This document shows positions 5,667 through 16,794 of a DNA stretch of 30,047 bases, in pieces. Origin of the DNA: a bacterium (GTDB lineage: Bacteria; Armatimonadota; Zipacnadia; Zipacnadales; Zipacnadaceae); NCBI GenBank assembly GCA_030603495.1, contig JAUVXR010000028.1, positions 1 to 30,047 on the forward strand, given 5' to 3'. Below the pieces are notes generated by a model, which did no database searches, was not told the DNA's origin, and saw nothing but the letters and a program-made list of their open reading frames with translations. The stretch's first letter is position 1; each line of letters opens with the position of its first letter. The position numbers and the translations under genes are program-made.

Positions 5667-8612
5667 TTATTTCTTGAGCATGCAGCACTTCTTGTATTTC
5701 TTGCCACTGCCGCAGAGACAGGGATCGTTGCGGCCGGGCTCCTTCTGAGCATGGTAAGTCTGCGCTATGCCGCGACTGTCCTCCGCCGCCTCGGCCATCG
5801 CCCCGGAGCCGTCAGTCTCCCCACCCGCGGGTACGCCGGCCGCTACCAGCTCCGGCGCCATCATCTGCGTGCCGGTCTCGAGCTCCGCCAGGTCGCGTTC
5901 CCGCTGCCGGGCACTGACTTCGCTCATCATTATCGCCTTGGTCATATCCCCGGCGATGTGGTCCACCAGCACCTCGAAGTAGTCGTAGCCCTCTTTCTGG
6001 TACTCGATAAGTGGATCGCGCTGGCCATAGCCGCGCAGGCCGATGCTGTCGCGCAGATTGTCCATCTCCTGGAGGTGGCCCATCCACCACGTATCCACGA
6101 CACGCAGCAGCCAGCTCCGTTCGATCTCCCGCATCATCTCCGGTCCAATGAGCGCCTCCCGTTCCTGATACAGTCGGTGGACAAGCTCGTGTAGCTCATC
6201 CTGGAGCCGGCTAGGATCCAGCGCATAGAGATCCTCGCCGCTCATGACCGAATCAATCGCCGGGACGGCCTCCACCAGGGCAGTGTAAAGCATATCCAGA
6301 TCACGGTCTTCGGGGTGGATGTCAGGGCTGGCATAGGCATCAACGACCGAATCCACGGTGCGCTCGAGCATCTTCAAGACGTACTCCCGGACATCTTCAC
6401 CCTCGAGGACGCGCCGGCGCTGCTCGTAGATGAGCGTACGCTGCCTGTCCATAACGTCGTCGTACTTCAGCGTATTCTTACGGATGTCGAAGTGGTGCAT
6501 CTCCACCTTCTGCTGGGCGCGCTCAAGCGACTTAGTGACAATCGAGTGCTCGATGGACTCTTCCTCAGGCCAGCCGCGGAGGAAGACCCCGAAGCGCCCG
6601 GGGCCAAACAGCTTCATCAGCTCGTCTTGCAGGCTGACATAAAAGCGCGAGCTGCCTGGGTCGCCCTGGCGGCCCGAGCGGCCGCGAAGCTGATTGTCAA
6701 TGCGGCGGCTTTCGTGACGCTCGGTCCCGAGGATGTGCAGCCCCCCGAGACCTCTCACATTCTGGTAAAGCTCAGGATTGACATCCTGGTTGGGATCCTC
6801 GGACTTACCGCCCAGGACAATGTCCACACCACGGCCCGCCATATTGGTGGCAATCGTGATTTGCCCGGGCCGTCCCGCCTCCGCGATGATCCGGCTTTCC
6901 TGCTCGTGGTACTTCGCGTTGAGGATATTGTGGGGGATGCCGTCGGCCAAAGCCTGCTCGAGCCGCTGGCGATAGCGCTTCGTATCCCGCTCGTCGGTAT
7001 CTTCGTCCACGATTTGCAGCAACCCAAGCAGATGGTCAGCATTCTCTTCGGCCTGGGCGTCGGGCGCCAGTTCCAACTCGCGGGCTATCTGGGTCAGCTC
7101 GTGGCGGTCCAGCTCGTCGAGCGGCCCGCGCAGTCGCTGGGTATATTCGTTGGCATTCTTACCCTCAAGCTTCGGCCCCTCACCGAGCTTCCATTGGCAC
7201 AGCAGCACCAGGCAGTGCCGACGCAGCTTGTCGGCGGCCAACCGCGTCCCCAGGTACTCGGAGACCTGCACTGAACGCGAGCCGCACAGCACCGGTTGCT
7301 CGCGGACATACATATTCAGTATCTCAGAGACGATCCCGCGGTACTTGGCTTCCTGGGTCTTGTAGACCACATCGGGGTAGTCCGCCCTGACGACCGGTTT
7401 GTTGGTGGGCATGACCACAACCGGCATCCCGTAGATCTGGACAAATTCCTTCTCCTCAGTCTTGGCCGTGCCAGTCATCCCCGCCAGCTTCTCATAGAGA
7501 CGGAAGAAGTTTTGATAGGTGATACTGGCCACGGTCTGGCGAGCTTGCTGGACCCGCACCCCTTCTTTGGCCTCGATAGCCTGGTGCAGCCCGTCACTAT
7601 AGCGCCGGCCAGGCTGGAGGTGGCCGGTGAATTCGTCAACGATAACGACCTCGCCCTCTTTGACTACATAGTCCACATCAGACTTGAACAGGGCGTGCGC
7701 CTTCAAGGAGTTGTTGATGTGATGGGCGATATCGAGGTACTCGGGGTCAGAGAGGTTGTCAATATTCAGCATCCTCTCGACCTTCTTCTGGGCCTTTTCG
7801 GTCAGCGCCACCTGATGGAACTTAGGATCAAAAGTGTAATCGGCATCGGTGTCATCTTCATCTTCGGTGCCGCGCAGCCGCGAGGTGATGCGGTCTATCT
7901 CATCATAAAACTGAGTGCTCTTCTGGGGCATACCCGAGATAATCAGCGGCGTACGTGCCTCGTCAACGAGGATGCTATCTACCTCGTCAACGATGGCATA
8001 GTAGAGGTCGGGTAAGACGAGATTAGCCGGGTTAGCGGTCATATTATCGCGCAGGTAGTCAAAACCCAGCTCGCTGTTCTCGACGTAGGTGATATCCTTG
8101 GCATAGTTGGCCAGACGCTCACGTGCCTCCATGCCCTTCTGGATGTAACCACAACTCAGACCGAGGAATTCGTATATCTCCCCCATCCACTCTGCCTGCC
8201 AGCGCACCAGGTAGTCGTTGGTGGTCACGAGCTGGACGCCTCGACCGGTCAGCGCGTTCAGGTACAGCGGCATCGTCGCCGCCAGCGTCTTGCCCTCGCC
8301 GGTCCTCATCTCAGCGATCTTGCCCTCGTGCAGGGCGATCGCCCCGATCACCTGCACGTCGAAGTGGCGCTGGCCCAGCGTCCGCCACGCCCCTTCACGC
8401 ACTAGCGCGTAGGCCTCGGGGAGAATGTCATCGAGCGTCTCCCCCTGGCTGAGCCGAGCTTTGAACTCCTCGGTCTTAGCCGGGAACTGCTCATCGCCGA
8501 GCTGCTTGATCTGCGGCTCGAGCGCATTGACCTCGGCCACCTGCCGACGCAGGCGAGCCACCTCCCGCTCGTTGGCATCGAAAACCCGTTTTACTACACC
8601 GAGAACACCCAT
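5667..8612 (-). CDS. secA: preprotein translocase ATPase SecA
   Basis: SecA is the ATP-driven motor that pushes unfolded preproteins through SecYEG. The 981-residue protein shows Walker A TGEGKT (104-109), the DEVDSILVDEARTPLIISG segment with the DEAD-type box (209-212), GMTGTA (about 378-383), the second-half motifs TNMAGRGVDI and QLRGRSGRQGDPG, and a C-terminal SEC-C zinc motif CLCGSGKKYKKCC that binds SecB or ribosomes in other bacteria. Between the usual 'RSVQVSEYLG' strand and 'HNILNAKYHE' there are about 90 extra residues (roughly 465-557), charged and largely helical. ATG at 8612 has AGGA upstream. It stands alone, with its own promoter at 8634-8662, and serves the many exported proteins in this window. 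Confidence 0.97.
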   Translation of the reverse strand: MGVLGVVKRVFDANEREVARLRRQVAEVNALEPQIKQLGDEQFPAKTEEFKARLSQGETLDDILPEAYALVREGAWRTLGQRHFDVQVIGAIALHEGKIAEMRTGEGKTLAATMPLYLNALTGRGVQLVTTNDYLVRWQAEWMGEIYEFLGLSCGYIQKGMEARERLANYAKDITYVENSELGFDYLRDNMTANPANLVLPDLYYAIVDEVDSILVDEARTPLIISGMPQKSTQFYDEIDRITSRLRGTEDEDDTDADYTFDPKFHQVALTEKAQKKVERMLNIDNLSDPEYLDIAHHINNSLKAHALFKSDVDYVVKEGEVVIVDEFTGHLQPGRRYSDGLHQAIEAKEGVRVQQARQTVASITYQNFFRLYEKLAGMTGTAKTEEKEFVQIYGMPVVVMPTNKPVVRADYPDVVYKTQEAKYRGIVSEILNMYVREQPVLCGSRSVQVSEYLGTRLAADKLRRHCLVLLCQWKLGEGPKLEGKNANEYTQRLRGPLDELDRHELTQIARELELAPDAQAEENADHLLGLLQIVDEDTDERDTKRYRQRLEQALADGIPHNILNAKYHEQESRIIAEAGRPGQITIATNMAGRGVDIVLGGKSEDPNQDVNPELYQNVRGLGGLHILGTERHESRRIDNQLRGRSGRQGDPGSSRFYVSLQDELMKLFGPGRFGVFLRGWPEEESIEHSIVTKSLERAQQKVEMHHFDIRKNTLKYDDVMDRQRTLIYEQRRRVLEGEDVREYVLKMLERTVDSVVDAYASPDIHPEDRDLDMLYTALVEAVPAIDSVMSGEDLYALDPSRLQDELHELVHRLYQEREALIGPEMMREIERSWLLRVVDTWWMGHLQEMDNLRDSIGLRGYGQRDPLIEYQKEGYDYFEVLVDHIAGDMTKAIMMSEVSARQRERDLAELETGTQMMAPELVAAGVPAGGETDGSGAMAEAAEDSRGIAQTYHAQKEPGRNDPCLCGSGKKYKKCCMLKK

Positions 8613-8633
8613 AGAATCCTGATCACCGGCAAC

Positions 8634-8662
8634 ATTATAGCACAGTTGCGGTTTTACCTTAA
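8634..8662 (-). promoter_or_regulatory. putative promoter of secA
   Basis: On the minus strand a perfect TATAAT (8639-8634) lies 22 nt before the secA ATG. A poor -35 (TTAAGG, 8662-8657) is 17 bp upstream. The leader would be very short, about 15 nt, which argues against leader-based secA control of the E. coli secM type. Confidence 0.45.
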
Positions 8663-8709
8663 GTATGGACGCTTCACCCGGCCAGAAAGTTGACTGAAAG
8701 CCGGTAGGA

Positions 8710-8724
8710 CAGGCGTCTCGCCTG
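8710..8724. repeat. short perfect palindrome (CAGGCG-TCT-CGCCTG)
   Basis: A 6-bp inverted repeat with a 3-nt loop sits in the 250-bp gap between secA and the permease fragment, within GGACAGGCGTCTCGCCTGC. Short palindromes like this are often dispersed, REP-like sequences in large environmental genomes. Only one clear copy is seen here, so the repeat label is inferred. Confidence 0.3.
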
Positions 8725-8864
8725 CTTGACGCGTAGTGCTGCTTGCTGCATACTGGGCCTTAGACCAACGAGACGCGGTAGCCCGCAAACGAGGCCAGGA
8801 TATGTGGCCACGGAAGCTGCTGGACTCAACATGGTTACGGATTTGTAACGACCGGAGAAACTCT

Positions 8865-9145
8865 ATGCAGAAGAAACGAGGAAACGCACAGATGCTGATT
8901 CCCACCATCGTCATGGCGGTGCTGGCGGTCACGCTACTTCTGATCGGCTACTACCGGGGCACAGGCGAGCACATCGCCGGCACACGCACCGGCCTGGTAA
9001 TGATCGTGCAGATCCTGCCCCTACTGTTGTGTGCATTCATCATCGCCGGCATGGTCCAGGTACTGCTGCCCCAGGAGCTGATCGGCCGGTGGGTAGGTGC
9101 CGAATCCGGTCTGCGTGGACTGCTCATCGGCAGCGCAGCGGGCGG
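8865..9145 (+). pseudogene. permease (DUF318/ArsP-like), N-terminal fragment
   Basis: From ATG 8865 (GGAGA upstream; ATG 8892 is an alternative with GAGG upstream) the frame encodes about 93 residues. There is one hydrophobic segment (IPTIVMAVLAVTLLLIG), then a second (VQILPLLLCAFIIAGMVQVL), then the typical ELIGRWVGAESGLRGLLIG loop. This is the start of the predicted permease family that pumps or handles small molecules in the inner membrane. After the expected 'GSAAGG' the sequence stops resembling a permease, and the other frame becomes the C-terminus of TrmFO. At least six transmembrane segments are missing, so it cannot function. Confidence 0.65.
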
Positions 9146-9493
9146 GTCGCGGACTGCGGGGGGCTTTTCCTGGCGGGGCAACTGCTGGGCACCGCCGACT
9201 ACACGGAGGCGGCGGCTACTGGTTGGCTGGCGGGAGTTAATGCGGCCCGTTGGGCCTGCCGCCGGGAGCCTGCGTTAATCCCGGGGGAGACGATGTTTGG
9301 CTCTCTGATTCGCCGATTGACCGAAAGTGATGTGAGCAGTTACTGCTCAGAGCCGGTTAACTTTGGAATGCTGCCCACGGAGAGGGGAGATGCCGGCCTC
9401 TCCAAAGAGGAGCGGCGCCAGTTGCAGGTGCAGAAGTCGGAAGTGGCGCTGGCTGAGTTGCTGGTTGAGCAGATATCAGAGACAGGAGGTTGA
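9146..9493 (+). pseudogene. trmFO: TrmFO (folate-dependent tRNA U54 methyltransferase), C-terminal fragment
   Basis: In the +2 frame, directly after the permease sequence ends, the protein reads GLFLAGQLLGTADYTEAAA, then GWLAGVNAAR, ALIPGETMFGSLIRRLTESD and VNFGMLPTE. These match the last third of TrmFO (Gid), including the FAD-domain 'FAGQ..G..GY.E..A.G..AG.NAA' block, the 'P.ET..G.L..Y.T' segment and the 'NFG.LP' tail. TrmFO makes ribothymidine at tRNA position 54 using methylene-tetrahydrofolate. About 330 N-terminal residues, including the FAD-binding GxGxxG site, are missing. ATG 9293 has a GGGGGAGA site and might still give a 66-residue product. The stop overlaps the next ATG (TGATG). 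Confidence 0.75.
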
Positions 9494-9606
9494 TGAGAGT
9501 GATTTACGTAGGAGTGGACGTGGCGAGAAGCAAGCCAACTGATATTGTCGCAGTGGATGCGAACTTGGTGGCTTACCCCGGCTTCCACCGCGCGGGCGAT
9601 CGGTAA
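9493..9606 (+). CDS. 37-residue stub ORF coupled to the trmFO end
   Basis: An ATG at 9493 shares an A with the trmFO stop (TGATG) and has a strong CAGGAGG site. The product starts MRVIYVGVDVARSKPTDIV, which looks like the first beta strands of an RNase H-like domain (the DUF429 or IS110 transposase start is similar). It then ends after 37 residues. Translational coupling suggests that it followed trmFO in an ancestral operon and was cut off about 28 bp before the nagA stop. The family cannot be settled from so short a piece. Confidence 0.4.
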   Translation: MRVIYVGVDVARSKPTDIVAVDANLVAYPGFHRAGDR

Positions 9607-9634
9607 CAGTTTATGGAACCGCGCGAAGTTATTG

Positions 9635-10831
9635 TCATTGCGCACCCGACTCATACACACAGTGCCCGGCAATCCAGGTTTGTTCAACCTCCAGTCCATC
9701 GTTTAGCACCACCAGGTCGGCGTCTAAGCCAGCTTCTATCTGTCCCTTCTGACCTTCCAGGCCTAGAACCTGGGCGGGATTGGCGCTGGCCATGCGGATC
9801 GCCTGGGGCAACTCGATGTCGAGCATAGCAACTGCGTTGCGCACAGCTCTGTCCATTGTCAGGCCACTGCCGGCGAGACCACCTGGGCGGTGAGAGTCCT
9901 CTGGCAGGCGCGCCGGGCCACCTTCGTAGGCAGATTCAACTTCCCGGTCGCCGAAACTGTAGCGGCCTGGTGGCAGACCGGCTACAACGTTGGCATCAGT
10001 GATCAGACACACCCTATCAGGCCCCTTGCACTGCAGAGCCATTTCAACCGCAATTGGGTGTACATGCACCCCGTCGAGTATGAAATCCACGCTAACCCGA
10101 GGGTCTGCCAGTATCGCTTCGACTACCCCGCAGGGCCGCACGTCGGGCTCCTGCTCTTCGGGCACTGGAAATGCGTCGTAGAAGTGGGTGGCATGACGTG
10201 CGCCGGCTTCAATCGCGGCTTGAGTCTGCTCGACATCCGCAGCAGTGTGGGTGATAAACACGGGTGCGCCTGTGGCGCTCATAAGCCGGATTAACTCTAG
10301 AATCTGCGGGAATTCAGGTGATATGCTGAATACCGCTGCATAGGGCTCGACCGCCTCGATGAGCGCCTGTGCCTGCTCCTTGCCCACCTTGGTGAGCGCC
10401 TCCGGGGGCATAGCACCCGGCAGACTCAGGAACGGAGTCTCGAGGTGAAATCCCAGCACTTGACTCCCCGTGCAGGAAGTTTCCGCTAACGAAGCCACAG
10501 AGCGGGTATCTATGTCTTTGTCTTTGGCCCAAGGGGTGAGAGTCGGCAGAAAACCAACCACGCCGTAGCGGGGCAGCAGTTCACAGATCGCCTGCAAGCT
10601 GTCAGGGCCAGTGTCGAGACGAAACCCGTGGAGACCGTGAGTGTGCAAATCGATGAAACCCGGGGTAAGATAGTTCCCACCGGCATCTACGATACGGTCG
10701 GTGCCCATCGCTGAGACAGCATGAGTCGGACTGACGCACTGGATCCTGCCATCCGCCAACGTTACGGTCTGCTGCCTGGCCACCTGATCCAGTTTCACAA
10801 CAGATGCATTTGTGATTAGCACGCGCGACAT
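9635..10831 (-). CDS. nagA: N-acetylglucosamine-6-phosphate deacetylase (NagA-like)
   Basis: NagA hydrolyses the acetyl group from N-acetylglucosamine-6-phosphate in amino-sugar and peptidoglycan recycling. The 398-residue protein has the amidohydrolase layout: a small beta domain, HTHG (His63, His65), GFHLETPF (Glu131), FITHTAA (His195), HATHFYDAF (His216), DGVHVHP (254-258) and LITDAN, where Asp279 is the catalytic base. The length is normal and all metal and catalytic positions expected in NagA are visible. 'ATHFYDAF' departs from the usual ATHLFNAM, so substrate preference may differ. The ATG at 10831 has AGGAGG 8 nt upstream. The gene starts 12 nt after the peptidase-acetyltransferase stop, so the two form an operon. 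Confidence 0.88.
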   Translation of the reverse strand: MSRVLITNASVVKLDQVARQQTVTLADGRIQCVSPTHAVSAMGTDRIVDAGGNYLTPGFIDLHTHGLHGFRLDTGPDSLQAICELLPRYGVVGFLPTLTPWAKDKDIDTRSVASLAETSCTGSQVLGFHLETPFLSLPGAMPPEALTKVGKEQAQALIEAVEPYAAVFSISPEFPQILELIRLMSATGAPVFITHTAADVEQTQAAIEAGARHATHFYDAFPVPEEQEPDVRPCGVVEAILADPRVSVDFILDGVHVHPIAVEMALQCKGPDRVCLITDANVVAGLPPGRYSFGDREVESAYEGGPARLPEDSHRPGGLAGSGLTMDRAVRNAVAMLDIELPQAIRMASANPAQVLGLEGQKGQIEAGLDADLVVLNDGLEVEQTWIAGHCVYESGAQ

Positions 10832-10843
10832 AAGTAGCTCCTC

Positions 10844-13693
10844 CTAAATTGGCTGCAGCTGCTCCGGTGCTGCTTTGATTGCAATTGGCTCATCTGGTGG
10901 TTGCCATTCCTCACGTAGTATCTTCTGGTAATTGGCGCAGAACAGGCAGTGTGAGTCGTCGCACAGTACCAGTGTTGGATCGTCGCTAACCACCTCCAGT
11001 GCAATCCGGAAAAGCTGTTGAGCATCGATAAGTTCCAGCTGCCCCATCCCCACGTCCAATCTTTGTGTTTGCCAGCCAGCTACTCGCAAGGCACGGAACA
11101 GTTTGCGCTCTTCGGCAGGCGGATCGTACCAGTCGCGATGCCCGGGCAACCACTTAGGGATGACCACTGTCTCCAGTATGCCATCTTCACGTTCTATCCA
11201 TCCGTAAGCCCGTTTGAGAAACGGTAGGTTAAGGCAGTCCTCAATGAGATGGATGAATGTCAGCGCGCCCAGCGGCGCGCCCAGCATCAGGATCTTCCCG
11301 CCGAGGTCTACTAGCTTCCCCAGCGGGCTGCGCTGGCCGGCGGGGGAGTCGGTCTCGCTATGATCCCTGATGCATTCTTCGCTCAGCGGTCCAGTAACTC
11401 CGACCGAATGAGTCGGGTGACAGCTACGGACCACGTCCTCTCGTTCCAGGAATGTCTGGGGAATACGTCCAATCCACACCGGGCTTTTGTCCGGATGATA
11501 CGGTCTGATGCGTGAGTCGCACATCAGCTCCACGTCGCAAAAGAACACACACCGGCTAGACGTTGGCAAAACCAGCGTCCCTTCCGAACCAAGCACCGCC
11601 AGTAGGGCATTGATGATTGTGTCGGCTTCGCCCTCAATGTGACCTAGAGCATTGAGCGAACTGTGTACAAATAGCAGGTCGCCATCGGCCACACCCACAT
11701 CACGGAGGGCCCCCTCGATATCCTGCTGACTGAGGCTCCGGGCATACTCTGCCCCGAGGTAGCCGTACTCTGCCAGCATCTCAGATTGTGCGACGATAGC
11801 CCGCACTTCACTATCAGAGTACGTGTGGGCACTTTCGGCCTCCAGGCATTCAACGATCTGCAGGAGGTTACGTTCTCCATCCATATACGCCAGCGGAGCC
11901 AACTCCAGCGAGTCATACCGCCATCGGACCTCTTCGGGAGCTCTGGCCAGATCCTGGGGGAAGCCGCGAGTTGTGCGTGCACATGTCATGTTCTGCGCCA
12001 GTTGGCGAGCATGGCTGAGACTGCGGTCGGGCTGCAGTTGGCCGGGTTCGGTCGTGAACTGCGGTGTGTGGCTGGCTACAGTTTTCTGCGCACCATCGAG
12101 GGCCTTGCCCAGGTGCTCTCGGGCTGAGGCGATCACCGCTTGGGCTTGCTGATCCGTCAGCAAAGGCCATTCGCGGAGGGTATCCAGACGGTCGGTGTTA
12201 CGCCTGTGCAGATACTCCAGCCGCCTGCGCGCACACAGTACCGCTTCTCCTGTAGCTTGCTCGTCTGGGGTCAATTGCTTCCGCAGACGCTCCGCTTCGT
12301 CGCTGAGACTCTCGCTGCCCTCGGCGGCAATCTGCTCAGTAATCCGGTGAGCCCGCTCTTGGTCCACTGTCGAAAGTGCCAGGCAGTAGGCGGCACTGAC
12401 AACGGTATTGTTCTGCAAGAGGCTGTGGTCAACAGTGTCCATAGTCTGCGCTGAACTGTGCCAGTAGTGGTGTGCGGGTCTATTGATCAGCAGGGCGGGT
12501 ATACCCAGGGTAGGGTCGCCAATGACTGGATCGTCGCTGAACACGCCGTCTTCTACCTTCCAAGGCATATCAGGGTCAGTGCGCTGGAACTGGGTGGCCG
12601 TCAGCTCAGCCAAGATCACATCCCCGAAAAAGCTGTGCGCGGGCTGACTCTGGCAAACCAGCAGGGGGCCGTCGACAACCCGGCGGCTGATGGCGATGCC
12701 GTCCAGGACCAGTGCCGTTAAGATGTTGTCCAGGGCGGCATGACGCTGTTCCAGGTAGGCAGCGTAGCCGTAGACTTCGGCAGTAAAGATCGGGCGGATA
12801 GTGCAGCGAGGCGGGTCAATCTCGCCGGCGGCAATCATTTCACTTAGCACCTGTCCGATTTCGATGCACGCAGCCACTCCCGTGGAATTGTCATTAGGCA
12901 TCGGTTCGTACAGATGCGACAGCAGCCAGATTTCCAGTTCAGGCCGCTGGGAGCCGGGAATTATGCCAGTCACAGTGTGGAAGTGGTCGGGGTAGCGCCG
13001 GGTGGTAACCTGGGCACGCACCTGGACCTGGCCCTGGGCGCAGGCATTACGCAGCGCCTCGCCCTGGCGCGGGCTGATCGAGAATCCGATAAGTGGCTCA
13101 TCCCGCAGCGTCGGCCACCAGTTAGGCCCGGCGGTGAACCAATTCTCCCAGCTAATGCCGTCCGGATTGGCCAGGCGATCTCGGTTCCAATCCGCCACAA
13201 TTCCTACCGCTCCCAGATCACTGGCCGCCTTCACCAGCCGATGGAGCCGATGGTGGGGACTGAGCAACACGAACTTGCCCTGCGCGGAGTTGCCCGCCCA
13301 CATCTGCTGCTCGGTTATCAACTGTGTCTCCAGTCCCTGCGACGGCGTGGACGCGGATCCCAGTATAAGATGCTTGGGCTCGCGATGCCAATCAGCGAGG
13401 ATCGGGTCACTGAAACTGACGGGAGCCTTAACCACCTCCAGGCGTCCATGCTCCGCCTCCCAGCCCAGCGGCATTATGTGATCGTTGAACACAGTCTCGC
13501 CGTCGGCTGGTACGGGAATCATCTCCACATCAGCAAAGCCCCCATCCTGCATTTGCTCGGCTGCATACTGAGCCGATTGGTGGTAACTGCTGAAACCGAA
13601 GCGGTACTCGCGCCGATAAAGCTGCTCGGTGCGCATAAGCAGCCGGTCAAGCTTTACCCTCTTGGTTAGCTTGTTCAGAAGCTCTTCGTACAT
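10844..13693 (-). CDS. M28-like metallopeptidase fused to an AAC(3)-type N-acetyltransferase
   Basis: The 949-residue protein has three parts. Residues about 1-450 form a DUF4910/M28-type aminopeptidase with a PA-like inserted domain (about 110-245). Apparent zinc ligands are in LLSHLYEP (His260), PNDNSTG (Asp268), FTAEVYG (Glu306), ALVLDG (Asp331) and YWHSS (His412). Residues about 580-650 look like the small winged-helix region found in such proteins. Residues about 655-905 match the aminoglycoside N3-acetyltransferase family: DLLFVHSSL, LVLPTSS, HPTHSVGVTGP (759-769), SPLGKLVDLGGKILMLGAP. A Cys-rich tail (CDDSHCLFCANY, 911-922) follows. No signal peptide is seen, so it should be cytosolic. 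The natural substrate is unknown; AAC(3)-fold proteins acetylate amines of many small molecules. It is the first gene of an operon with nagA. Confidence 0.8.
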   Translation of the reverse strand: MYEELLNKLTKRVKLDRLLMRTEQLYRREYRFGFSSYHQSAQYAAEQMQDGGFADVEMIPVPADGETVFNDHIMPLGWEAEHGRLEVVKAPVSFSDPILADWHREPKHLILGSASTPSQGLETQLITEQQMWAGNSAQGKFVLLSPHHRLHRLVKAASDLGAVGIVADWNRDRLANPDGISWENWFTAGPNWWPTLRDEPLIGFSISPRQGEALRNACAQGQVQVRAQVTTRRYPDHFHTVTGIIPGSQRPELEIWLLSHLYEPMPNDNSTGVAACIEIGQVLSEMIAAGEIDPPRCTIRPIFTAEVYGYAAYLEQRHAALDNILTALVLDGIAISRRVVDGPLLVCQSQPAHSFFGDVILAELTATQFQRTDPDMPWKVEDGVFSDDPVIGDPTLGIPALLINRPAHHYWHSSAQTMDTVDHSLLQNNTVVSAAYCLALSTVDQERAHRITEQIAAEGSESLSDEAERLRKQLTPDEQATGEAVLCARRRLEYLHRRNTDRLDTLREWPLLTDQQAQAVIASAREHLGKALDGAQKTVASHTPQFTTEPGQLQPDRSLSHARQLAQNMTCARTTRGFPQDLARAPEEVRWRYDSLELAPLAYMDGERNLLQIVECLEAESAHTYSDSEVRAIVAQSEMLAEYGYLGAEYARSLSQQDIEGALRDVGVADGDLLFVHSSLNALGHIEGEADTIINALLAVLGSEGTLVLPTSSRCVFFCDVELMCDSRIRPYHPDKSPVWIGRIPQTFLEREDVVRSCHPTHSVGVTGPLSEECIRDHSETDSPAGQRSPLGKLVDLGGKILMLGAPLGALTFIHLIEDCLNLPFLKRAYGWIEREDGILETVVIPKWLPGHRDWYDPPAEERKLFRALRVAGWQTQRLDVGMGQLELIDAQQLFRIALEVVSDDPTLVLCDDSHCLFCANYQKILREEWQPPDEPIAIKAAPEQLQPI

Positions 13694-13749
13694 GTTTTTG
13701 CCTCACAGAGGAGGGTTACAGGGCTCGATCTGATCCCAGCAGACCACGC

Positions 13750-14232
13750 TTAAATAGTCGCCGCACCATCGTAGGGCCCCGTCAGTCCGCTATGCAGCGA
13801 ATTGCCGTGATTGAAGACCACACGGATGTGCTTCTCGAAGGGAATGGCATCTGGTATGAACCCAGATTCCGTTCAACGTCTCTTCGGCTAGTTTCCCAGC
13901 TATTATTCTTGCCCGAATCCTTTGCGGGTTACGCTCGTCAGTGAAACCAGACTAGCAGAACATGAACTCCGGGAACTTCTCGCGCATCCGGGCCTGCATC
14001 ACTCGCATGGCCTCGTCCGGCCAGCCAATGTAGGGAGGCCAGATTCCCCAGTTGGCTCTTGCTTGGCCTGATATTCCTCTAGTCGGTGAGAAATTCCTTC
14101 TCCGGCTGGCGATATACGCACGAGAATCAGTGATTGCCAGTCGCTTCTTCTGCCCACTACCGCGCGCCTAGCGGGATCTACTGCCAACTGCTCAACGTTG
14201 TTGGTATCCTCGTGCCCCGATAGCTTGGTCAA
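13750..14232 (-). pseudogene. decayed gene of unknown family, C-terminal part
   Basis: Reading the minus strand and allowing two frameshifts and one in-frame stop gives a continuous protein-like trail. It starts in one frame with KLSGHEDTNNVEQLAVDP and DWQSLILVRISPAGE to EEYQAK. It shifts frame to NWGIWPPYIGWPDEAMRVM and REKFPEFMFC, passes a TAG (about 13956), then reads SGFTDERNPQRIRARIIAG and KLAEETLNG. It shifts again near 13850 to PDAIPFEKHIRVVFNHGNS and LTGPYDGAATI, and stops at 13750. No single frame explains this. I do not recognise the family. It lies just upstream of the peptidase-acetyltransferase operon, in the same orientation. Confidence 0.4.
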
Positions 14233-14357
14233 GCCCGGTCACGCTTGCACACCTTGCGGCAGGGCCAGCAAAGCTGGTGCAATGCGCAGGCCGCAGGATA
14301 ACAGATACGGAGAAGCAAGTGCCATCACACAGTCACCCCAGCAAACGCACACTGCCC

Positions 14358-14805
14358 GTGATTCGCTTGCCCCTGCTTATCACCGCGCTCGTTGTTGCCG
14401 GATGCAGCTCATCCCGCAGCCGTTTAGCGCAACCACGGCCTTCGGCGCCCCTACGACTTCACCAATCTGATCGCTGTCTTCTCGACCGCCGTACCTGGCC
14501 CCATCGCTATGATCAGCGACCTGCCCATGGAACTGAACTCAAGGAACGCCGCGCCGCAGTTGGTGGACCGGATCTGGAGCATCGCAGAGGCGCTGGGCCA
14601 CGACGCCTTCCGACGTACCGCCCAGGGCCCGATTATTGACGATCACGTGCCCTTCATCGCGGCCGGCATCCCGGCCGTGGACATCATTGATTACGTCCCA
14701 CCCGTTTGGCATACGACCGACGATGTGCCCGAGTATTGCTCGCCCGAGGCCCTGCGCCAGGTCGGCGAGACCGTGCGCCAGTCCTTGCGGTTCATTGCAC
14801 CGTAG
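14358..14805 (+). pseudogene. M28 family peptidase (glutaminyl-cyclase-like), deleted and frameshifted
   Basis: A lipoprotein signal (VIRLPLLITALVVAGCSS) in one frame is followed, after a +1 shift near 14450, by RPYDFTNLIAVFS, the usual N-terminal helix of M28 glutaminyl-cyclase-like enzymes. It then jumps near 14505 to MELNSRNAAPQLVDRIW and the C-terminal block IIDDHVPFIAAGIPAVDII with YVPPVWHTTDD (zinc-ligand His in WHTTDD). The central 150 or so residues with the other metal ligands are missing. The remains are about 130 residues against the usual 300. The last 115 bp overlap the 3' end of the opposing AbiEii-like gene. Confidence 0.65.
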
Positions 14806-15425
14806 ACAACGAAAGCGAGGCGAAGCTTCTCCCCATCGAGTCCGCCGTGGGCGAGCAGTTGGTGAACGTCGAATAGGTCACGGGCCGCATGGCGGGCGAG
14901 CAGGGCTGTGATCTTCCCGGCACCCAGTTCATGCTTGTCGAGTAGCGGAATGCCCTTGGCCGAGAAAGACCCGACCGGGCGCGAATCGCATATCACCACG
15001 GGCCAAAGTGGCACTCTAAACATGAAATTGAGGTCAAGCTCCAAGTTTCCACCCTGGCCCAAAGCTCCCTCATATCGCAACTGCCATTTGCCGCCGGCGT
15101 GGTCACTCGGAATGCGCTGAATGGAGAAGCCCTGCCGACCGCAAACAGCCGCGATGGCCTGCTCCAACTTCGGTCGTTCCGAAAGCATTGTCTCTCTATC
15201 CGGAGCGCCGAGGTAATTCAGGTCAAGGTCCACCGAGAGGCGCGGTAGGTCAAATACGAACAGGTTCAACGCGGTTCCGCCTTTCAGCGCCAGCCGGTTC
15301 CGCAGATAGGGATGACTCCTCAAGCCTTCCAGCAGCCCGAGTAGGTGAATAGCCTTCTCCAGCATCTCGGGTCGGAAGCCGGCTGATGCGGATTCCGCCA
15401 GCAGTCTCTCTCGGGAAAGTCTCAA
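14691..15425 (-). CDS. abiEii: AbiEii-type nucleotidyltransferase toxin (type IV TA system)
   Basis: AbiEii toxins are nucleotidyltransferases that, with their AbiEi partner, act as a toxin-antitoxin and phage-abortive system. The nucleotidyltransferase core is visible: LALKGGTALNLF followed by LSVDLDLNY (the GG[ST] and D-x-D catalytic motifs). The helical ARDLFDVHQLL segment lies near the C-terminus. The start is best placed at the TTG at 15425, which overlaps the AbiEi stop by 4 bp (TTGA) and has GGAGG 7 nt upstream; an upstream ATG at 15479 would add 18 residues antisense to nothing useful. That gives 244 residues. The C-terminal 38 or so residues overlap the end of the opposing M28 remnant, so the natural tail may be altered. 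Confidence 0.82.
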   Translation of the reverse strand: MRLSRERLLAESASAGFRPEMLEKAIHLLGLLEGLRSHPYLRNRLALKGGTALNLFVFDLPRLSVDLDLNYLGAPDRETMLSERPKLEQAIAAVCGRQGFSIQRIPSDHAGGKWQLRYEGALGQGGNLELDLNFMFRVPLWPVVICDSRPVGSFSAKGIPLLDKHELGAGKITALLARHAARDLFDVHQLLAHGGLDGEKLRLAFVVYGAMNRKDWRTVSPTWRRASGEQYSGTSSVVCQTGGT

Positions 15426-16222
15426 CCTACTTCCTCCCAGGAGCGCTCCAAGACGCGGACGGGGACGACCAGGTTCCATGAGTCCACCAAGCGCCCCGGC
15501 TCACGAGCGGAACGATCCATATAGTGTGGCTTGCGCGGAGTGTGGGAGCGCAGGCGGTCGAGATATGCCTCATCAACCATAAGCGCCTCGGCGTGCTGCT
15601 GTAGGTAGAAGCCGACCTTGGCGACGGTGGTGGCATTGCCGAGAAGCACAGCGTAATCCACTACCTGCTCGAGGTCGAAGTATTCAACGGATTCGAGCGA
15701 CCGCCACAGTTCCTCCCAGCCACCTCCTAGGGCGGGACGGTTGAGCACGTCCACCATCGTGCGCTCCAAGCCGGTGACACGGACATCCAACCCCGCGCGT
15801 TCGGCAAGTTCCAGTCCGAAGTACTCTTGCCCGTTGCGTACCAGCTCCTTCGGGAACGCCACTCGCTTAAAGGTTTCACCCGCGAACTGGAACGTCCTTG
15901 CCGCAAGCGCGGTAAGGTAGTAGAAGTCGTGGAACGCCGAGTAGGCCTTGCCGTGAAACTCCAGAGCGGTGTGGTAAGCCAGCACCGCATCAGGTGTCGC
16001 CCTGGCAGCAAGCAGGAACGGATCGGGACGGACGGACTCGGACGTCTGTCCAAGAGGCACAGTGACGTAGAGACCCCGGCGCACCCGCAGTATCCGACCA
16101 GCCTTTGCGTACTTCCTGAGGAGCGCCTTGCGTGTCTTGACGTTGCGGGAGCCCCTGTCTGCTAGGTAGGCCCCGAACTCTTCGTATGAGAACACCGGAT
16201 GTGTGGCAAAGAACTCTTGCAC
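15422..16222 (-). CDS. abiEi: AbiEi-type antitoxin and transcriptional regulator
   Basis: 266 residues from a GTG at 16222 with AGAGG 9 nt upstream. The N-terminus (about 1-60) is a winged helix: FSYEEFGAYL, a basic VKTRKALLRKYAKAGRI stretch, then RVRRGLYVTVP. This is typical of AbiEi proteins, which repress their own operon. The C-terminal part (about 75-250), with AYHTALEFHG and VTGLERTMVDVLNRP, matches the AbiEi antitoxin domain that counters the AbiEii toxin. The gene overlaps abiEii by 4 bp, so translation is coupled. A consensus promoter and a perfect 10-bp inverted repeat lie directly upstream, as expected for autorepression. Confidence 0.85.
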   Translation of the reverse strand: MQEFFATHPVFSYEEFGAYLADRGSRNVKTRKALLRKYAKAGRILRVRRGLYVTVPLGQTSESVRPDPFLLAARATPDAVLAYHTALEFHGKAYSAFHDFYYLTALAARTFQFAGETFKRVAFPKELVRNGQEYFGLELAERAGLDVRVTGLERTMVDVLNRPALGGGWEELWRSLESVEYFDLEQVVDYAVLLGNATTVAKVGFYLQQHAEALMVDEAYLDRLRSHTPRKPHYMDRSAREPGRLVDSWNLVVPVRVLERSWEEVG

Positions 16223-16258
16223 GGCAATCGGCCTCTATTTACTTGACATTGAACCACG

Positions 16259-16283
16259 ATAGTCGTACGGATTGTACGACTAT
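16259..16283. promoter_or_regulatory. AbiEi operator: perfect 10-bp inverted repeat
   Basis: ATAGTCGTAC (16259-16268) and GTACGACTAT (16274-16283) form a perfect inverted repeat with a 5-nt spacer. The spacer and right arm contain the whole -10 element of the abiE promoter. Known AbiEi antitoxins bind inverted repeats in their promoters, so this is the likely autoregulatory site. Confidence 0.7.
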
Positions 16284-16299
16284 TGACGGATGTTGTCAA
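16271..16299 (-). promoter_or_regulatory. consensus promoter of the abiE operon
   Basis: On the minus strand a perfect TTGACA (16299-16294), a 17-bp spacer and TACAAT (16276-16271) give a near-consensus sigma70 promoter. The start would be near 16264 and the leader about 42 nt to the GTG at 16222. The -10 lies inside the inverted repeat, so repressor binding would block polymerase. Confidence 0.75.
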
Positions 16300-16332
16300 G
16301 TGAAAGGCCCCTGTTAGTACAGCGCGCTGTCT

Positions 16333-16794
16333 TCAGTCCTCTCCGCCGTTGGCCGCGCCGCCCATGCGATACTTGATATCGTAGTTGATGATGAAGTCCA
16401 GTTCCTCGTCCGTGAAGCCATAGTGCTCCGCCAGCACACGGTCTATCTCGTCGATGATAGGCTTAGCACTGGTAGGATAGTATTCGTCATACTCCACGTA
16501 TCCAGAAGGGTACCTCCTCGACCTTATGGTGGCCGTATCCTTGTAGCAAGCCGATAGCTCTTCACACAGGTCCACTAGGCAAGCATGAGACTCGCCAAAT
16601 CGGAACTTCTCGATGTCCGAACGCTTGAGGTCGCGACAATTGCCGAACGCCTTGAAGAACGCGTAGAAGATTCCACTGTTAAGCACGGCAGCCACAGCGT
16701 CTCGAACGTCCACACTCTGTGCGTACAGTTCCTTGTAGTGCGAGGACACGTCGCGGTTGTCTGACCTCAGCGCCTTTTGGACACGGATGAACAG
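16333..16794 (-). pseudogene. Type II/IIG restriction-modification enzyme, C-terminal stub
   Basis: The frame holds about 154 residues from LFIRVQKALRS to the stop. The C-terminal block SAKPIIDEIDRVLAEHYGFT followed by DEELDFIINYDIKYRMG is the characteristic end of large N6-adenine methyltransferase or BREX-PglX-like and type IIG enzymes. Upstream is FFKAFGNCRDLKRSDIEKF, also typical. These enzymes are 900-1,300 residues, so nearly all of the protein, including the methyltransferase core, is missing. The frame reads through upstream of the GTG at 16749 to a stop at 16795, right beside the left end of the IS3 element, which shows where the gene was cut. Confidence 0.7.

Follow-up and report, generated by a model that had tools for sequence, protein, structure and literature searches.

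The nearest described counterpart of the N-terminal half of the protein analysed here is CA_C2195 of Clostridium acetobutylicum (3k9t), which consists of DUF4910, DUF2172 and HTH_47. Its authors argued in 2014 that it is not a peptidase and that sugar modification is likely, DUF4910 being linked to aminosugar N-acetyltransferases (PMC4000134). For DUF4910 they proposed transacylation or amide deacylation of an amino sugar, and they reported neighbourhood links and unspecified gene fusions that connect it with carbohydrate genes, including those for aminosugar N-acetyltransferases (PMC4000134). The counterpart of the C-terminal half is AAC(3)-IVa (6mn3), a group 1 enzyme of the Antibiotic_NAT family. 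The TxxHxxE motif of this family houses the catalytic dyad, and a structural zinc site is known in AAC(3)-IVa (PMC8956665). The PA-domain M28 aminopeptidases, represented by 2ek8, provide a further comparison.

The window, a stretch of 30,047 nucleotides, derives from a genome of 2.67 Mb in 62 contigs (94% complete) within Zipacnadia, a class of Armatimonadota (PMC10290634). One of its genes joins an M28-fold domain to an AAC(3)-type acetyltransferase in a single ATG-started frame of 949 codons, uninterrupted as the sequence-only reading had claimed. The AlphaFold2 model of the product is confident (mean pLDDT 89.3, pTM 0.85). The features of the locus are as follows:

10844..13693, minus strand: fused gene, 949 aa (P0001), from the ORF, Pfam and the AlphaFold2 model
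12374..13693, minus strand: M28-fold (DUF4910-like) domain, residues 1-440, with a PA-like insert at ~95-225, from Pfam M28 (27.8 bits) and the fold
12914..12916, minus strand: His260, first of five putative zinc ligands (with Asp268, Glu306, Asp331 and His412), from conservation
12014..12373, minus strand: antiparallel helical region, residues 441-560, helices in both structure models
11744..12013, minus strand: small winged-helix-like region, residues 561-650, from the alpha/beta pattern in the models and a weak HTH_47 match
10889..11743, minus strand: AAC(3)/Antibiotic_NAT domain, residues 651-935, from Pfam (2.5e-44) and alignment with AAC(3)-IVa (6mn3)
11240..11260, minus strand: catalytic motif T812-F-I-H815-L-I-E818, from invariance in fused proteins, with the role taken from PMC8956665
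10937..10963, minus strand: probable structural zinc site C911-D-D-S-H915-C916-L-F-C919, with C916 and C919 invariant
9635..10831, minus strand: nagA, 398 aa, 12 nt downstream of the fusion, from TIGR00221

The M28-fold and AAC domains are separated by ~120 residues of helices and the small winged-helix region. The winged-helix assignment made from the letters is supported by the alpha/beta pattern of the structure models, and the match of this region to the HTH_47 profile is weak (E 0.12, 12.3 bits vs a cut-off of 27.1). A structure search with the helical region alone returned only common helical-bundle matches and no decisive relative. The N-terminus shows no hydrophobic stretch or signal peptide. 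Since the AAC half also depends on a CoA donor, a cytosolic location is most likely for the fused protein.

The N-terminal half is recognised by Peptidase_M28 (PF04389) at residues 267-435, above the cut-off (27.8 bits vs 21.3). Both Peptidase_M28 and Antibiotic_NAT, two of the Pfam families named for checking, pass their thresholds, while DUF4910 (PF16254) stays below its own (19.7 bits vs 26.6). The DUF2172 insert gave no match in the fused protein at E up to 1. The closest solved fold to residues 4-459 is CA_C2195 (Z 29.9 over 360 residues), followed by the PA-containing aminopeptidase 2ek8 (Z 29.0); matches to the M28 folds of 2ek8 and 1amp lie at Z 28-29. In the fused protein and in CA_C2195 alike, the M28-like fold holds an insert and is followed by a winged-helix region; His, Asp and His residues are conserved in both, both M28 catalytic positions are replaced, and both are linked to aminosugar N-acetyltransferases. 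It differs from CA_C2195 in having only 17% identity over the structural alignment and a subthreshold DUF4910 score, and in carrying a PA-like insert instead of DUF2172, extra helices and a C-terminal AAC(3) domain. With the PA-domain aminopeptidases it shares the fold and the five metal-ligand positions, but it lacks their HxD Asp, their Glu-Glu pair and a visible signal peptide, and it has an acetyltransferase.

All five M28 zinc-ligand positions are present and form a putative metal site. His260, Asp268, Glu306, Asp331 and His412 lie where the sequence-only reading had placed them and are invariant in an alignment of the five intact fused proteins. In a 13-member family alignment Asp268, Glu306, Asp331 and His412 are likewise invariant, and His260 is present in at least 90%. 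An additional residue, Glu263, is also invariant, which suggests an active-site constraint on this half. The catalytic Asp of M28 enzymes, two residues after the first ligand His, is replaced by Tyr262 at a position that varies within the family. The Glu-Glu pair is replaced by Ala305-Glu306-Val307, and all 13 family members have only one Glu there. The alignment with 3k9t around Glu306 is without gaps, and this register suggests that Glu306 is a ligand and that Ala305 stands in place of the lost general base; if Glu306 instead occupies the base position, the ligand set would be four and not five. Asp331 is kept in the fused proteins but lost in CA_C2195 according to the profile alignment, and so a two-metal site is possible. 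Taken together, the altered catalytic positions, the nearest fold being the non-peptidase-like CA_C2195, and the lack of a visible signal peptide do not support the label of peptidase given earlier to this half, which is probably a DUF4910-like, non-peptidase domain.

In the C-terminal half, Antibiotic_NAT (PF02522) matches residues 676-901 (2.5e-44, 152 bits, profile positions 2-230 of 232) and passes the gathering score. Residues 648-926 align with AAC(3)-IVa over 256 residues (Z 29.0, rmsd 2.4). The two have in common the fold, the Thr/His/Glu motif and the C-terminal Cys/His cluster, and they differ in that identity is 29% and the AAC part of the fused protein does not stand alone. The proposal of a complete AAC(3) fold with HPTHSV is correct as to the fold and the motif, which lies at 759-764, but the catalytic residues sit in TxxHxxE and not in HPTHSV. 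Thr812, His815 and Glu818 of this motif are invariant in the five intact fused proteins, as are Cys916 and Cys919; by analogy with AAC(3)-IVa, the cluster from C911 to C919 is a probable structural zinc site.

The fusion was found in five other Armatimonadota genomes (G002, G101, G071, G084 and G049), giving six with that of the window. The possibility of an artefact, raised along with the original proposal, was addressed in these genomes, and recurrence together with low dN/dS through both domains in comparison with G002 rules out a chance frame or an assembly join. In G002, which belongs to the same genus, the order M28-AAC-nagA is retained at 74-86% identity and a DUF6785 membrane protein gene lies upstream. 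The fusion of G101 has 948 aa and 37-43% identity to the window protein, and those of G071, G084 and G049 are frames of 925-942 aa with 26-28% identity over the whole protein. In a further genome, G005, residues 1-102 of the protein are encoded where a contig ends (87% identity). A scan of named genomes with the fusion protein found no relative, and the fusion was also not found in seven genomes holding close relatives of NagA. The gene neighbours of the fusion vary from one lineage to another. In both G084 and G071 the beginning of the fused frame is overlapped by a metallo-beta-lactamase-fold gene, which is itself preceded by a NUDIX-like gene.

Trees of the M28 and AAC halves agree on two clades, both supported at 99/99 or better. 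One contains the window and G101 (with G002 added in the AAC tree) and the other G049, G071 and G084. The M28 tree needs two changes to account for the fusion; in the AAC tree a single change is enough, on a weakly supported grouping (46/83). A single origin is not rejected by the AU test (p 0.26), so that the fusion arose once or twice and the trees do not discriminate between these. Against G002, dN/dS is 0.15 and 0.11 for the M28 part, 0.21 for the helical and winged part, 0.09 for AAC and 0.12 for NagA. Values of 0.09-0.21 in every segment indicate that both halves of the fused gene are under purifying selection. The copy in G002 is missing ~104 nt, out of frame, after approximately codon 269 in the M28 part. 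Either the fused gene of G002 is broken or its assembly is wrong; in the former case the M28 half may be dispensable in that genome.

Pairs of related genes occur elsewhere in the phylum. Among 101 relatives searched, full-length DUF4910 genes occur at six places, and three of them (G040, G027 and G018) directly follow AAC(3) genes; this adjacency repeats the linkage reported in 2014. A fourth, in G037, comes immediately after an FkbH-like part where the contig ends. The AAC(3) domains of G040 and G018 lie within proteins of 973-1002 aa that contain a HAD-like part as well, and the G040 protein begins with residues that look like those of an acyl carrier protein. A DUF2172 match (2.9e-28) is present in the true DUF4910 protein of G040. 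These loci resemble the fusion in that AAC(3) and M28-fold parts occur together, and differ from it in having separate genes, HAD-like and probable carrier-protein parts, and no NagA. In the PA-type family to which the fused protein belongs, fusions occur in six genomes and an unfused member in G010 follows an AAC(3) gene, while more than 20 of the ~30 members fetched have no AAC(3) gene in the fetched flanks. In G010 a long inverted repeat (AAAAGGGGTCAGAGGCTATTTTC and its complement; L034 10770-10930) separates the AAC(3) and M28 genes, which are therefore possibly not co-transcribed. The window genome itself has a second AAC(3)-M28 pair on contig C31 (L092 1261-3857). Here the gene after AAC(3), in the same orientation, encodes a canonical M28 peptidase in which the motifs HLD, EE and HTTEDT are present.

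Several other arrangements of these families were noted. AAC(3) genes overlap or adjoin neutral-ceramidase-like genes in G271 and G294 (L088 2061-4299; L118), pairing an acyltransferase with a putative amide hydrolase. In G060 (L087 1819-3441) Antibiotic_NAT is fused to a xylose-isomerase-like TIM barrel (AP_endonuc_2) in a protein of 541 aa, and AAC(3) frames of 500-600 aa are many in the phylum. On the plus strand of the window a glutaminyl-cyclase-like M28 gene remnant (14360-14790) lies beside an AbiEi/AbiEii pair (14691-16222, minus strand). No Rfam match was found in window positions 8500-16500.

The gene downstream of the fusion was correctly placed as nagA 12 nt away. Its product passes the TIGR00221 equivalog model (237.3 bits vs a cut-off of 225.65), and the 12-nt gap contains a strong Shine-Dalgarno-like AGGAGG that overlaps the stop codon of the fused gene. 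An operon with nagA, as proposed, fits the gene order here and in G002, but in G101, G071, G084 and G049 the genes next to the fusion do not include nagA. A conserved fusion-nagA system beyond the genus was therefore rejected, and nagA cannot define the function of the fusion; it supports an amino-sugar setting in this genus only. The expectation that the same architecture would be found beside nagA in relatives thus held for the fusion itself, and for its neighbour only within the genus. A Candidatus Zipacnadia bacterium record carries a nagA 84% identical to that of the window. The scan of named genomes gave nine NagA relatives, and the closest found outside the genus are in Pirellulales, Planctomycetota, Sedimentisphaerales, Kiritimatiellae, Lentisphaerae and Spirochaetes records (51-58% identity). 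Identity in other Armatimonadota searched is at most 42%, so that this NagA is closer to those of other phyla and the gene was probably acquired laterally. In several phyla nagA lies beside a distant NagB-like gene, ceramidase-like genes and an FGGY kinase, although not every gene is present in each record, and these groups possibly represent an unrecognised amino-sugar pathway. Standard nagB (PF01182) was not found in the window genome; a distant NagB-like gene is present on another contig, near a DegT-type aminotransferase identified by reading. On the plus strand at 8790-9490 of the window the first part of an ArsP-like permease gene continues, with a change of frame, as the last part of a TrmFO-like gene, which is either a deletion or an assembly chimera. 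In G002 a long TrmFO-like frame lies opposite nagA.

Our preferred reading, held tentatively and at somewhat less than an even chance, is that the fused protein is a cytosolic two-domain enzyme that remodels the acylation of an amine, an amino sugar or amino-sugar conjugate being the likeliest substrate. We infer that the metal site of the N-terminal M28-fold domain would cleave or transfer an amide on this substrate, and that the AAC(3)-fold domain would then acetylate the amine through His815 and Glu818, with acetyl-CoA rather than another acyl donor. In the genus of the window NagA may act next, on that product or on something related to it. A more specific version is acyl exchange within one chain: an M28-fold domain with a non-peptidase active site would strip an amino sugar of an acyl or aminoacyl group, and the AAC(3) domain would put acetyl in its place. 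This version we consider unlikely. Counted in favour of the remodelling enzyme were the conserved ligands and TxxHxxE motif, the CA_C2195 and AAC(3)-IVa folds, the sugar-modifying role proposed for the DUF4910 relative (PMC4000134), the AAC(3)-DUF4910/M28 gene pairs and the purifying selection. Counted against it were the replaced M28 Asp and Glu, by which the N-terminal domain may only bind; the lack of an AAC(3) neighbour in most of the ~30 family members fetched; fusion flanks that vary by lineage; the inverted repeat in G010; the out-of-frame deletion in G002; and the window, where no amino-sugar biosynthetic cluster is visible.

If the N-terminal domain only binds, it could be a non-catalytic, metal-stabilised binding and dimerisation module, as in the transferrin receptor, leaving the AAC half alone as an N-acyltransferase for a sugar or amine. 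Tyr262 at the variable HxD Asp position and the single Glu where M28 peptidases have two count in favour of such a module, and transferrin receptor and GCPII chains do align over residues 1-600 (Z 27-28), but with rmsd of 4.5-7. The common helical-bundle matches of the helical region speak neither for nor against a relationship to that receptor's dimerisation domain. Transferrin receptors have lost the metal site. The fused proteins, by contrast, keep all five ligand positions at identities of 26-39% to the window protein, retain the Asp331 that CA_C2195 has lost, and have an invariant Glu263, so we judge such a non-catalytic role somewhat unlikely. The same conserved ligands would also suit a true intracellular enzyme of aminopeptidase type that frees an N-terminal amine for the AAC half to acetylate, a trimming and capping of peptides; the canonical M28 peptidase gene beside the other AAC(3) gene of this genome also counts in its favour. 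This reading is nevertheless distinctly unlikely, as the canonical catalytic Asp and Glu-Glu pair are absent and the closest fold is the non-peptidase-like CA_C2195 (PMC4000134).

Aminoglycoside resistance is highly improbable, even though a resistance enzyme, AAC(3)-IVa, has the solved fold nearest to that of the C-terminal half. The protein scores far below the cut-off of every NCBIfam AAC(3) resistance model (115.5 vs 270 for AAC_3, with the other models lower against higher cut-offs). Plasmid AAC(3) proteins among the matches listed cover only the C-terminal third of the fused protein, at 26-33% identity, and the AAC domain is fused to a conserved second domain. Genes with PF02522 are also near-ubiquitous in relatives (38 of 41 genomes).

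The suggestion that this combination may be undescribed can be kept in a restricted form. No description of this two-domain protein was found in the literature searched, and the covalent union of AAC(3) with a PA-type M28 domain seems undescribed there, but linkage of DUF4910 to N-acetyltransferases at the level of neighbourhoods was already known in 2014 (PMC4000134). For DUF4910-type proteins a structure dates from 2009 and a role was proposed in 2014; no reported activity was found in the literature searched. An exchange of acyl groups by the fused protein, if true, would be the first activity for the DUF4910-like branch, whose function is still unassigned in the papers searched. Fusion to an acetyltransferase of known chemistry narrows the search for a substrate to amine-bearing compounds and makes both steps assayable in one protein. 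More broadly, the finding suggests that in environmental bacteria many genes of the AAC(3) family serve metabolism and not resistance.
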